Of a stretch of 64,000 nt of DNA, positions 18,705-21,914 are shown one piece after another. This DNA is from Cyanobacteria bacterium SZAS-4 (GTDB lineage: Bacteria; Cyanobacteriota; Vampirovibrionia; Obscuribacterales; Obscuribacteraceae). The stretch is from assembly GCA_018266255.1 (NCBI GenBank), contig JAFEAT010000012.1, positions 62,001 through 126,000 on the forward strand, written 5' to 3'. Positions within the stretch are counted from its first letter, which is position 1. Each line of letters begins with the position of its first letter. The notes under the pieces are model-generated. The model ran no database searches, was not told the origin of the DNA, and saw nothing but the letters and a program-made list of their open reading frames with translations. The position numbers were made by a program, and so were the translations under genes.

Positions 18705-19901
18705 TCAGCTGTTCAGAGCTGCTGGCAATCGACTTGCTGTGCCAAATAGTTGTTCTAAATATTCGCAGCTTTCATCTTTTTTCAGTGATGAAAGCAAATC
18801 GTCGATGCCTTTCTCCAGCTCGGTAAGGGCAGCGACGATATCAGTTTTATTTTGTTCGACGATCTCTTGCCACAGTGGTGGCGGGCTCTTCATCAGGCGC
18901 GAAAACTGTCTCAAGCCAGGTCCGGACAGTCTGGCAAACTTCAATAGATCTGCGTCTGAAATGTCTTTGGAAATTTGTGAGCCGATCAGCACAGCAACCA
19001 GCTGAATCAAGTGACTTGTGCGCGCCAGCACTGCATCGTGCTCTAGGGCACCAACCACTTCCACGTGAAAACTCAAAGTCGTCAGCCATCGACTTAAGCG
19101 ACGCACTGATATTTCTGATGATTTTTGACCTGGCACAACACAGAAAGTGCTGCCTTCTACAGTCAGGTCGAGAGCCGCTTTCAGCCCGCTTCTTTCGCTT
19201 CCGAAAAGCGGATGCCCACCGATAAAATCGGCGCCTTTCAAATTCAATTCTTCCGCCAGTTGTCCGATTTTGCCTTTGCTCGAAGTCACGTCGATGACGA
19301 GTTTTCCTTTGGACAACATTGGCGCTATCTCTTTCAAAATCTCGATGTTTTGAGCCGGTGATGCTGCCAGAATAATCAAGCTGGAACGCTGTAAGGCAGC
19401 CTTTTGATCTGCAATTCCTTTGTCGATCAAACCTTGCTCTAGAGCTTCGGCAAGAACTTCCTCTTTATCGACACCGATTATTTTTGTCTCGGGCAATCGT
19501 CGTTTGATTAGTCTCGCCAGAGCCCCACCGATCAGCCCGACACCAAATATGGTGACTTGCGGAAAATAGGTTGTCACTTGTGGATCGATGGCATTCTCTT
19601 GTTGAATCTGTCGACTCAGTTCAAACAAACGTTCATAAGTGTTACGAATTGCATTGCGCATTTGCTCGGTTTCACCAATTTTCGACACTCGATCGAGAAC
19701 TTGTTCTTCGCGTGAACGGTCTTTAATCGCCATTCCCAGCTGTGCCTTGACTTCGGTCAATTCGCCGGCCAGTTGCAAACGTTCGTTCAACATTGATGCA
19801 ATCTGGCTATCGAGTTCGTCGATACGTGTCCGAATTTCGCCCAAGCGAGACTGAGCCCGCAAATTGGAGCTGTTAGACGAGGGCGCTTTCGGTCGTCGCA
19901 T
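18705..19901 (-). CDS. tyrA: Chorismate mutase-prephenate dehydrogenase fusion
   Basis: The N-terminal AroQ-type chorismate mutase (about residues 18-100) has R-I-D-E-L-D-S-Q-I and the charged helix pattern R-S-R-E-E-Q-V-L. The C-terminal prephenate dehydrogenase (about 108-395) starts with the NAD(P)-binding G-V-G-L-I-G-G-A-L-A and contains G-G-H-P-L-F-G-S-E. This is the bifunctional T-protein arrangement, which turns chorismate into prephenate and then 4-hydroxyphenylpyruvate. It is the only chorismate mutase visible in the window, so it may also feed the separate PheA. It lies 46 bases after aroF on the same strand with GGAAG as ribosome binding site, and probably shares the aroF transcript and attenuator. 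Confidence 0.93.
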   Translation of the reverse strand: MRRPKAPSSNSSNLRAQSRLGEIRTRIDELDSQIASMLNERLQLAGELTEVKAQLGMAIKDRSREEQVLDRVSKIGETEQMRNAIRNTYERLFELSRQIQQENAIDPQVTTYFPQVTIFGVGLIGGALARLIKRRLPETKIIGVDKEEVLAEALEQGLIDKGIADQKAALQRSSLIILAASPAQNIEILKEIAPMLSKGKLVIDVTSSKGKIGQLAEELNLKGADFIGGHPLFGSERSGLKAALDLTVEGSTFCVVPGQKSSEISVRRLSRWLTTLSFHVEVVGALEHDAVLARTSHLIQLVAVLIGSQISKDISDADLLKFARLSGPGLRQFSRLMKSPPPLWQEIVEQNKTDIVAALTELEKGIDDLLSSLKKDESCEYLEQLFGTASRLPAALNS

Positions 19902-19947: not shown

Positions 19948-20868
19948 CTAGGATAGTCTGCGCAGCAGGCTACCTGACTTCTGTTTTTCGAATGAGACTT
20001 TAACATGCTTGTTGGAAGAATTCACGATCGAGAATTGACGTTTGTCTGTGCGAATCACTCTGCGTCCTACTGCCTCAGCGATAGGCTGCAGGCTGATCGT
20101 CAGATCGACCATATCCTGCAAGGACAGTGCCTGTCTGGCATCTGAGACTGACTTCTCTGGTTCAGGATGGCATTCAATGATCAGACCATCGGCACCACAG
20201 GCAATGGCAGCGCGGGCGAGATCGGCAACCAGTTCACGTTTTCCAGCAGCATGGCTCGGGTCGACGATCACAGGCAGATGCGTAAGTTGCTTCAAAGCCA
20301 CAACTGCGCCCAGATCCAGTACGTTTCGAGTGTAGGTATCGAAACTGCGAATACCACGTTCACACATAATTACATTGGGATTTCCGCAGGCGAGAATGTA
20401 TTCTGCTGCCATGAGAAATTCTTCAATTGTTGCGCAAAGTCCACGTTTTAGAAGAACCGGTGTCTGCACCTTTCCGAGCGCTTTGAGCAATTCGAAATTC
20501 TGCATATTGCGGCTGCCGATTTGCAACATATCAGCGTGTTCTACCACTGCGTCAATTTGTTCGATCGACATAACCTCAGTCACGACCGGCACTTGATGGC
20601 GATCGCGAATGTCGCTGAGGATTTTCAATCCATCCAATCCCATGCCTTGAAAGGCGTATGGCGAAGTTCGTGGTTTGTAGACGCCGCCACGCAAAGCCTG
20701 GACTGGTCCCCGTTTCAGATGGTTGGCAACTTCTTCCATTTGCTCTGCGCTCTCGACGGTGCAAGGTCCGCCTATGATCATCAAATCCCTTCCGCCGCAT
20801 TCGGCATCACCAACTTTGATGATGGTTTTTTCTGCAGCATCTTTCTTGCTTGCTAATTTTGCGTCCAT
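19948..20868 (-). CDS. aroF: 3-deoxy-7-phosphoheptulonate (DAHP) synthase, short single-domain type
   Basis: It condenses phosphoenolpyruvate with erythrose-4-phosphate, the committed step of aromatic synthesis. The 306 residues carry the barrel motifs I-I-G-G-P-C-T-V-E-S (about 32-41), R-G-G-V-Y-K-P-R-T-S-P-Y and V-D-P-S-H-A-A-G-K-R of the I-beta/KDO8P-like class. There is no fused ACT or chorismate mutase domain, so allosteric control by those is not expected. A strong AAGGAG lies seven bases before the ATG. The roughly 300-base leader upstream contains an aromatic leader peptide and alternative hairpins, so expression is likely set by attenuation. It is followed by tyrA. Confidence 0.94.
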   Translation of the reverse strand: MDAKLASKKDAAEKTIIKVGDAECGGRDLMIIGGPCTVESAEQMEEVANHLKRGPVQALRGGVYKPRTSPYAFQGMGLDGLKILSDIRDRHQVPVVTEVMSIEQIDAVVEHADMLQIGSRNMQNFELLKALGKVQTPVLLKRGLCATIEEFLMAAEYILACGNPNVIMCERGIRSFDTYTRNVLDLGAVVALKQLTHLPVIVDPSHAAGKRELVADLARAAIACGADGLIIECHPEPEKSVSDARQALSLQDMVDLTISLQPIAEAVGRRVIRTDKRQFSIVNSSNKHVKVSFEKQKSGSLLRRLS

Positions 20869-20893
20869 TTTGAACTCCTTGTAAAAGCGCTAC

Positions 20894-20921
20894 AGCCCGG
20901 GACCTCTCTGGGTTCCGGGCT
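20894..20921 (-). terminator. Attenuator terminator hairpin of the aroF leader
   Basis: Read on the minus strand, an 11-base-pair stem (AGCCCGGAACC with GGTCCCGGGCT, one G-T pair) closes a six-base loop, 15 bases before the aroF ribosome binding site. A short run of four T follows after six bases, a weak U-tract. The 5' arm can instead pair perfectly over seven bases with TCCGGGC at 20960-20966, inside the leader-peptide codons, which would break this stem. That exclusive choice is the hallmark of an attenuator. If the weak U-tract does not terminate transcription, the hairpin could act on translation instead. Confidence 0.7.
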
Positions 20922-20951
20922 GGCTGGTAATGGTTGAAACAAGTGTGCTTG

Positions 20952-21020
20952 TTACTCCCGCCCGGAAATTATCCTGCTGGTGAAGAAATAAAAGCTGTAG
21001 TACCAATTCATCGTTTTCAT
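20952..21020 (-). CDS. Aromatic leader peptide of the aroF-tyrA attenuator
   Basis: A 22-codon frame starts with ATG at 21020 and stops with TAA at 20952-20954. Codons 6-13 read W-Y-Y-S-F-Y-F-F: seven of eight specify aromatic residues, and all three aromatic amino acids are represented. Codons 19-21 contain TCCGGGC, which pairs with the 5' arm of the downstream hairpin at 20894-20921. A ribosome stalled at codons 6-13 would leave this sequence free to form the antiterminator. A ribosome that reaches the stop would cover it and allow the hairpin. The ribosome binding site is weak. A six-base-pair hairpin (20938-20953) overlaps the stop codon. Confidence 0.8.
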   Translation of the reverse strand: MKTMNWYYSFYFFTSRIISGRE

Positions 21021-21030
21021 TTGATTTTTG

Positions 21031-21113
21031 CTCTAAAAAGAAAAGAACCGCAGAGTCTATCTGCGGTTCACCTGCGAGGACCAAGAACGGGTCTAACTCA
21101 CGCCAGGTGAACC
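21031..21113 (-). promoter_or_regulatory. Upstream leader element: intrinsic terminator competing with a 9-bp stem
   Basis: On the minus strand a perfect ten-base-pair hairpin (GAACCGCAGA with TCTGCGGTTC, loop of five, 21045-21069) is followed by TTTTCTTTTT, a strong intrinsic terminator. Just upstream, nine bases GGTTCACCT (21105-21113) pair perfectly with AGGTGAACC (21065-21073), whose last five bases are also in the terminator's 5' arm. The two structures therefore compete. There is no nearby upstream gene on this strand to be terminated, so this is either a second regulated terminator in the aroF leader or the end of a small RNA. It does not match a known riboswitch class that I can identify. 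Confidence 0.6.
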
Positions 21114-21184
21114 TCTATAAACCAGTAATAAAAATAGTTGCTGTGCATTTCGATTTCTTTTTCGCAGTTCCAAATTGTATCCAC

Positions 21185-21213
21185 ATGCTAGCTGAAGTGA
21201 GAAGGCGCGTCAA
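21185..21213 (-). promoter_or_regulatory. Candidate promoter for the aroF leader transcript
   Basis: On the minus strand TTGACG (21208-21213) is separated by exactly 17 bases from TAGCAT (21185-21190). These match the sigma-70 -35 and -10 boxes at five and four of six positions. A transcript from here would begin near 21178 and carry both hairpin elements and the leader peptide before aroF. Other weaker matches exist nearby. Confidence 0.4.
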
Positions 21214-21349
21214 TAAAATTTGCTGTCGCGGTTTACATTGTCGGTCGAAGCTGCATAATGCAATCATCTAATAAATGGATGGGTGGCGCGAATATAGATC
21301 AGGGATCGGTGGCACGAATCTGAGATTACACTCGTCTCGACTGCTTACA

Positions 21350-21401
21350 AGCCGGTGCTTAAATTGATGCATCACTAAAAAAATCAATTTAAGCACCGGC
21401 T
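21350..21401. repeat. 19-bp perfect inverted repeat upstream of a Usp gene
   Basis: Arms at 21350-21368 and 21383-21401 are perfect inverted copies (AGCCGGTGCTTAAATTGAT and its complement) around a 14-base loop. Beyond a two-base mismatch, four more bases pair on each side. There is no T-run on either strand, so it is not a simple terminator. It ends 48 bases before the Usp start, where an operator could lie. The right arm and its flank (21383-21408) match 29959-29984 at 22 of 26 positions. Confidence 0.7.
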
Positions 21402-21449
21402 CTTAAGGGCGTAAGGGAAAGCAACCAGAGCTGAGAGGCTTAGAAGACA

Positions 21450-21914
21450 ATGAATATTTTGCTTGCGGTAGACGGATCGCCTTACTCCAAGGCGGCTTTG
21501 GACGCGGTTCTCGAGCGCCCATGGCCGGCGGGAAGTTGCTTCAAAGTGCTGACTGTCGTTGAGCCATTCCACCCAGAATACGCCGGATGGCAGACTGCAT
21601 ATGTGCCGCTTGCGGTTGAGGTTCAGCAAGAGCAGATGTCGTCGGCCAAGACTTTAATCGACAGCAGTGCCTCTCAATTGACCGAAAAGTTCGGAGCAGA
21701 CGCAGTCACTCTCGAAGTCGTCGAAGGATACATCAAGGACCGGATCTTGGAAGTTGCCAAAACCTGGCCCGCTGATTTGATTGTGGTTGGTTCGCACGGG
21801 CGACGTGGCTTTACAAAATTTTTGCTAGGCAGCGTTTCTGAAGCAATCGTGGCGCATGCTCCGTGTTCCGTTGAAATTGTGAAGTTGAGAGAGCACCCGC
21901 CAGTCAATCACTGA
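21450..21914 (+). CDS. Universal stress protein, single Usp domain
   Basis: The 154-residue UspA-type protein has the ATP-binding signature G-S-H-G-R-R-G near 116 followed by L-L-G-S, and the opening M-N-I-L-L-A-V-D-G-S-P-Y-S. It is probably a homodimer in the cytoplasm. It stands alone between the aroF leader, transcribed away from it, and a convergent small membrane protein gene. The inverted repeat at 21350-21401 lies directly upstream and may control it. It is a closer match to the family than the first domain of the tandem Usp protein at 3427. Confidence 0.9.
   Translation: MNILLAVDGSPYSKAALDAVLERPWPAGSCFKVLTVVEPFHPEYAGWQTAYVPLAVEVQQEQMSSAKTLIDSSASQLTEKFGADAVTLEVVEGYIKDRILEVAKTWPADLIVVGSHGRRGFTKFLLGSVSEAIVAHAPCSVEIVKLREHPPVNH

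Follow-up and report, generated by a model that had tools for sequence, protein, structure and literature searches.

Ribosome-mediated attenuation is a textbook mechanism. The enteric leaders trpL, pheL, pheST and hisL each combine a leader ORF carrying the regulatory codons with mutually exclusive antiterminator and terminator helices in front of the cognate biosynthetic operon. To our knowledge, the cases at aromatic genes, whether already known or found during this work, involve one gate each and come from proteobacteria, actinobacteria and Acholeplasma. In the actinobacterium C. glutamicum, the aroR leader peptide attenuator likewise stands before a DAHP synthase gene, aroF; its Phe-Tyr-Phe leader is reported to respond to Phe and not to Tyr (Neshat et al. 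2014, via PMC11802643 and PMC4046766), and the portions of these articles that describe aroR mention one attenuator with a single leader, compared with two gates at the locus described here. The uORFC-13-1 element, compared by its description only, is likewise a predicted aromatic (Phe) uORF with a terminator before aroF, but it is a single uORF occurring in Acholeplasma and environmental sequences only (PMC8632094). Two short ORFs in one leader also control transcription into the Salmonella mgtCBR operon, where the tandem attenuators mgtM and mgtP sense ATP and proline (PMC3641672); there the two signals differ and the genes serve Mg2+ and virulence, whereas the two leaders described here carry codons for one and the same set of three amino acids and stand before the operon that makes these. 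For cyanobacteria, a 2011 transcriptome study of S. elongatus mentions attenuation only to set it against its own data on pausing (PMC3219970). Our literature search, which covered few subscription journals, returned no report of a leader-peptide attenuator in cyanobacteria or Melainabacteria. An earlier sequence-only reading of the locus was aware of no description of such an attenuator in the Melainabacteria.

The locus lies in a 64,000-nucleotide stretch of DNA (the window, meaning the whole stretch analysed) from Cyanobacteria bacterium SZAS-4. The sequence-only reading had proposed one ribosome-mediated attenuator before aroF and tyrA that responds to Trp, Tyr and Phe. The two genes do follow in that order, and conservation and covariation speak strongly for such an attenuator, but two of them stand in series and the one proposed is the downstream one; a further leader peptide with its antiterminator and a strong terminator (21035-21148) had been missed. 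The leader of aroF-tyrA has the order LP1-T1-LP2-T2. The promoter and the first gate consist of the following features:

21208-21213, minus strand: -35 element of the leader promoter, TTGACG, from a pattern scan; TTGAC[GCA] also occupies this position in L006-L010 and L030
21185-21190, minus strand: -10 element TAGCAT, after a 17 nt spacer; TAGCAT or TAACAT in most of L006-L010 and L030, TAAGGT in L010
21098-21148, minus strand: leader peptide 1 (LP1), MHSNYFYYWFIEVHLA, 16 codons with stop UGA, conserved in family and phylum
21104-21113, minus strand: A1, 5' arm of antiterminator 1, GGTTCACCTG, in the last LP1 codons; covaries with B1
21065-21074, minus strand: B1, 3' arm of antiterminator 1, CAGGTGAACC; its GAACC is common to B1 and terminator 1
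21045-21069, minus strand: terminator 1 (T1) hairpin, GAACCGCAGA-TAGAC-TCTGCGGTTC, from a terminator scan
21035-21044, minus strand: U-tract of T1, TTTTCTTTTT, qualifying as that of an intrinsic terminator

The second gate and the genes behind it are:

20952-21020, minus strand: leader peptide 2 (LP2), MKTMNWYYSFYFFTSRIISGRE, a conserved ORF of 22 codons
20960-20967, minus strand: A2, 5' arm of antiterminator 2, TTCCGGGC, LP2 codons 18-21; backed by covariation and partner permutation
20913-20920, minus strand: B2, 3' arm of antiterminator 2, GCCCGGAA, within the 5' arm of hairpin 2; backed by covariation
20893-20922, minus strand: terminator 2 (T2) hairpin, CAGCCCGGAACC-CAGAGA-GGTCCCGGGCTG; backed by covariation
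20881-20892, minus strand: degenerate tail of T2, TAGCGCTTTTAC; T5-T8 in most relatives
20875-20880, minus strand: Shine-Dalgarno sequence of aroF, AAGGAG, outside hairpin 2
19948-20868, minus strand: aroF, DAHP synthase of the B. subtilis type (TIGR01361)
18705-19901, minus strand: tyrA, a chorismate mutase-prephenate dehydrogenase fusion

The promoter pattern TTGACG-17-TAGCAT (21185-21213) lies upstream of LP1 and is kept in relatives, so that both leaders should be in the transcript; transcription would be expected to start near 21178. A start downstream of 20950, which the sequence-only reading had named as fatal to its proposal, would thus not apply.

From the sequence features and their conservation, the leader very probably holds two ribosome-mediated transcription attenuators in series that would sense charged aromatic tRNAs. 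In each gate, a short ORF rich in Phe, Tyr and Trp codons ends within A, the 5' arm of an antiterminator. A is complementary to B, and B in turn supplies the 5' arm of the terminator. If aminoacyl-tRNA for any of the aromatic amino acids is scarce, the ribosome would stall at the aromatic codons and leave A free, A:B would form and RNA polymerase would continue. When all of them are plentiful, the ribosome would reach the stop codon and cover A, and the terminator would form. Polymerases that pass gate 1 (LP1/T1) would then face gate 2 (LP2/T2). Translation, stalling and termination are presumed at both gates, and the benefit of having two may be a lower leak and a steeper response.

The proposed mechanism belongs to the trp/phe class, and as in that class the operon is the cognate one (aroF-tyrA in the window, aroF at 29 of 29 loci read across the phylum). 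Unlike in trpL, pheL, pheST and hisL, each leader covers all three aromatic amino acids and two complete gates stand in series. The antiterminator arm also lies in the last leader codons, in contrast to the enteric attenuators, and the predicted folds lack the classical 1:2 protector hairpin, in place of which a small hairpin separates A from B; an untranslated leader would therefore be expected to leave gate 1 open.

The coding character of both leaders is well marked. LP2 has W, Y, Y, S, F, Y, F and F at codons 6-13, as the sequence-only reading had described for this 22-codon ORF, and LP1, about 130 nt further upstream, has Y, F, Y, Y, W and F at codons 5-10. Among the 96,057 stop-free stretches of eight residues in the six frames of the window, the only one with at least seven aromatic residues is in LP2, and 6 of the 16 stretches with at least six are within LP1 or LP2. 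In 68-69 related LP1 leaders, five core codon positions are 93-99% aromatic, with F, Y and W interchanging. The core is followed by V-H or V-R, nearly always written GTT then CAC or CGC, a codon choice explained by the RNA pairing. The Shine-Dalgarno sequences of LP1 and LP2 are weak. In L126 and L128 the LP1 stop codon (TAG or TAA) is located just before A1 and not within it; A1:B1 is still kept.

Covariation was found in both helices of both gates, that is, in mutually exclusive antiterminator and terminator helices. At gate 1 (44 sequences), A1:B1 was paired in 95.9% of cells, and 35 cells had changed on both sides compared with 11.2±2.4 after shuffling (0 of 500 shuffles as high). Pairing fell to 55% or less when the partner was slid. 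T1 was paired in 98.7% of cells, with 13 double-changed cells (shuffled: 2.9±1.3). The values for gate 2 (31 sequences) were 87.4% paired and 26 double-changed cells for A2:B2 (shuffled: 10.2±2.4), and 92.3% and 22 cells for T2 (shuffled: 7.6±2.2). The shuffles retain the relatedness of the sequences, an effect against which the slid-partner controls and the recurrence in different genera offer protection. In both gates the sequences' own partners were superior to permuted ones (0 of 10,000 permutations as good), and the outcome was unchanged when B2 was picked from the terminator alone. One column of gate 1, A in 33 sequences and G in 11, is paired in both alternative helices, as U-A or U-G in A1:B1 and as A-U or G-C in T1. 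Pairing with both alternative partners is what would be expected if both helices were under selection. The complementarity that the sequence-only reading had pointed out at gate 2, between TCCGGGC in A2 and GCCCGGA in B2 within the 5' arm of the hairpin at 20893-20922, is exact, and the comparison with related genomes that it called for showed the aromatic run and the pairing to be kept, with compensatory change.

We also folded the leader with the ribosome modelled as an edge along it; the leading edge of a ribosome is about 16 nt from the P-site codon, which was the footprint used. With the edge upstream of A1, corresponding to stalls at codons 5-8, antiterminator 1 formed with a probability of 0.81-0.84. 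With the ribosome at codon 10 onward, T1 formed with a probability of 0.99, and the medians over 69 sequences agreed with the window. The A1:B1 antiterminator excludes T1 through the overlapping GAACC. In folding with both pairings, which the sequence-only reading had suggested for its single attenuator, gate 1 would thus switch with the position of the ribosome, and gate 2 would do so only under kinetic assumptions: at equilibrium T2 beats A2:B2 even with A2 free in many species, including that of the window, so that gate 2 would have to work kinetically. Before the 3' arm of T2 is made, A2:B2 has a median probability of 0.96, and folding ahead of the synthesis of this arm would, in the model, give gate 2 a kinetic way out.

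To follow the element through the family, we compared the AroF protein with 50 genomes and obtained 30 loci. LP1 (e.g. MRTNFFYYWFREVHLA, MSRSFYYFWFMEVHLA and MRNFGFYYWFMEVRLG) and LP2 (e.g. NWFYSYFFFTRDWPG, NYFYGFYFFARGSPG and SYYWYFFFFAGG) recur in nearly all of them, accompanied by their terminators. The genus of the window includes Ca. Melainabacteria palsa_1080, whose locus L087 is identical to L007 across 2,666 bases. An exact degenerate pattern of gate 1 matched 41 times in GTDB species genomes. Two matches, in Microbacteriaceae (L077) and Betaproteobacteria (L088), lack the leader and were rejected as chance. Nearly all others carried names of Melainabacteria or Obscuribacterales, or of photosynthetic cyanobacteria (Calothrix, Phormidium, Oculatella, Spirulina, Elainella and Leptolyngbyaceae). 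Among 24 pattern loci checked, the next gene was aroF wherever the sequence sufficed, except at L098 and at L072, where no long ORF was found downstream of gate 1. The photosynthetic pattern loci also have LP2 and a strong T2, apart from L097, which is without LP2. Culturable strains with the element include Calothrix sp. NIES-3974, Phormidium tenue FACHB-886 and Spirulina subsalsa FACHB-351.

With a covariance model trained on the family of the window alone (R1), gate 1 was found in 37 genomes outside the class of the window, with aroF downstream at 29 of the 29 phylum loci read and both leaders at nearly all of them; under strict filters this model found no gate 1 in the class of the window beyond the family of the window. 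A wider gate 1 model (R2) detected the gate in 146 of 390 genomes and 72 of 159 genera of the photosynthetic Cyanobacteriia; for the order of the window the count was 37 of 53 genomes. A separate gate 2 model (R3) gave matches, some of them weak, in 80 of the 159 Cyanobacteriia genera and 148 of the 390 genomes. The R2 and R3 genome counts are probably underestimates because the filters were strict and few candidates were scored. Both gates were present in 126 genomes, and in all 126 gate 2 was just downstream on the same strand, at a distance of 43-214 nt (median 66.5 nt). The sequence-only reading had taken the element for a feature of a Melainabacteria-type genome; it is widespread in photosynthetic cyanobacteria as well. 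In a quick AroF tree the Obscuribacterales copies formed one group (support 88) beside or within the cyanobacterial ones; with weak support and a long outgroup, the tree fits common descent or a single transfer alike.

Some variants were seen along the way. L032, L034, L097 and L132 keep LP1 and T1 with no recognisable LP2 and are natural single-gate variants that lend themselves to comparison. L090 (JAJPJO010000465.1), a metagenome-assembled genome labelled Proteobacteria bacterium, carries an Obscuribacterales-type element with aroF and is probably mislabelled. Many photosynthetic cyanobacteria (L106, L108, L111, L069, L076, L104 and others) have a GTCATGC-like motif just after the LP2 stop codon, often at the base of a small hairpin between A2 and B2; the motif is possibly a polymerase pause.

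The canonical terminator at the locus of the window is T1, upstream of LP2, and it (21035-21069) is the sole terminator-like site that the terminator scan returned in the region. T2 is followed there by TAGCGCTTTTAC and falls short of the U-tract of an intrinsic terminator, which most relatives have in full (e.g. L009, GCCCGGGCC..GACCCGGGCGTTTTT). The sequence-only reading had named this short U-tract as its weak point; the tail is indeed degenerate in the genus, but it belongs to the second of two gates. Gate 1 is intact in the genus. Gate 2 retains its leader and both helices there and has lost most of its U-tract, and it is therefore probably a weak terminator or a pause in these genomes. 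One may ask whether only gate 1 regulates, LP2 and hairpin 2 being a decayed, non-regulatory copy in this genus. The degenerate T2 tail in all three genomes of the genus and the complete loss of LP2 at the four single-gate loci fit this explanation. We nevertheless regard it as tentative and rather unlikely, as LP2 retains all its aromatic codons within the genus and A2 and B2 can still pair (two genomes have TTCCGGGC/GCCCGGAA, the third has CCGGGC/GCCCGG). Outside the genus, T2 as a rule has a full U-tract.

Gate 2 could also have turned into a pausing or translational device, in which hairpin 2, rather than ending transcription, slows the polymerase close to where ribosomes bind for aroF or has an effect on initiation. 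A stable hairpin (about -20 kcal/mol) with a poor U-tract, followed after about 12 nt by the Shine-Dalgarno sequence of aroF, would suit such a device. This explanation seems to us unlikely, since the Shine-Dalgarno sequence is outside the hairpin and the equivalent hairpin is followed by T5-T8 in most relatives.

Terminator and antiterminator anatomy does not by itself name the sensor, and the helices might be switched by an RNA-binding protein or by a ligand- or tRNA-binding leader such as a T-box or other riboswitch, the ORFs being incidental; the conserved GTCATGC after LP2 in many species could be counted in favour. Searches of the window with Rfam 15, at gathering and at relaxed thresholds, matched no family to the element; the relaxed search gave only chance matches of miRNA families to an unrelated inverted repeat, and the covariance models of T-box and other Rfam riboswitch families produced no match at gathering score. 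Moreover, the aromatic codons are kept by exchange of F, Y and W in the 68-69 leaders and the stop codons lie at the helix. The kept codons speak against a non-coding switch, which would not need them, and make such a sensor very improbable. A last alternative, in which T1 simply ends the transcript of the gene upstream and LP1 is a chance ORF, has nothing in its favour beyond the presence of a lone terminator. The upstream gene (21450-21914) is divergent, and the recurrence of LP1-T1 before aroF across the phylum refutes this alternative.

What is new about the two attenuators is the tandem of gates of the same specificity and its spread. On balance, we lean towards seeing them as an undescribed cyanobacteria-wide unit, in which two non-identical aromatic attenuators in series and in fixed order would form a two-stage, multiplicative gate through which oxygenic phototrophs control the first step of the shikimate pathway. 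Much of the phylum keeps two gates of equal codon content in this order, which raises a question of circuit design, namely why there are two alike. Such an arrangement would imply coupling of transcription and translation on the aroF leader in cyanobacteria, and would point those who engineer cyanobacteria for aromatic products to the leader that may be limiting for DAHP synthase. The alignments are also covariance-model material for new Rfam families.

Related leaders were looked for at other genes. The other three DAHP synthase paralogs of the genome (L001, L002 and L004) lack an aromatic leader, and none was found in the pheA upstream regions of five genomes. Upstream of trpE in the genome of the window (L160, G000:C41:95776-96237) and in its relatives L157 and L156, there is a single Trp leader (peptides ..FKGWWRLSQQPGKLMPGW and MNTTAINKSIWWSWWNETQ..). 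In L157 and L160 the end of this leader, CAGGTAAGCT, base-pairs with a terminator's 5' arm, an architecture like that of the aroF gates but with a single gate and Trp codons only. Judged from its sequence, it is a third candidate leader-peptide attenuator in the group. The same scan, applied to trpE in two photosynthetic genomes, found no Trp leader.

In Obscuribacterales bacterium SW_9 (L098, 5032-8000 reverse complement; G019:C20:2893-3003), gate 1 is followed by an aromatic LP2-like ORF and a terminator, and precedes a gene for a DIT1/PvcA-type isocyanide synthase and then TauD and FAD-monooxygenase genes, not aroF. This synthase family uses aromatic amino acids and does not make them.

Between the divergent genes, the window also contains an inverted repeat of 25 bp (21344-21407; 92% complementary, 14-nt loop). 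Its arm occurs at 26 sites of the genome with at most two mismatches, compared with 0 for a reversed control, which identifies it as a dispersed repeat.
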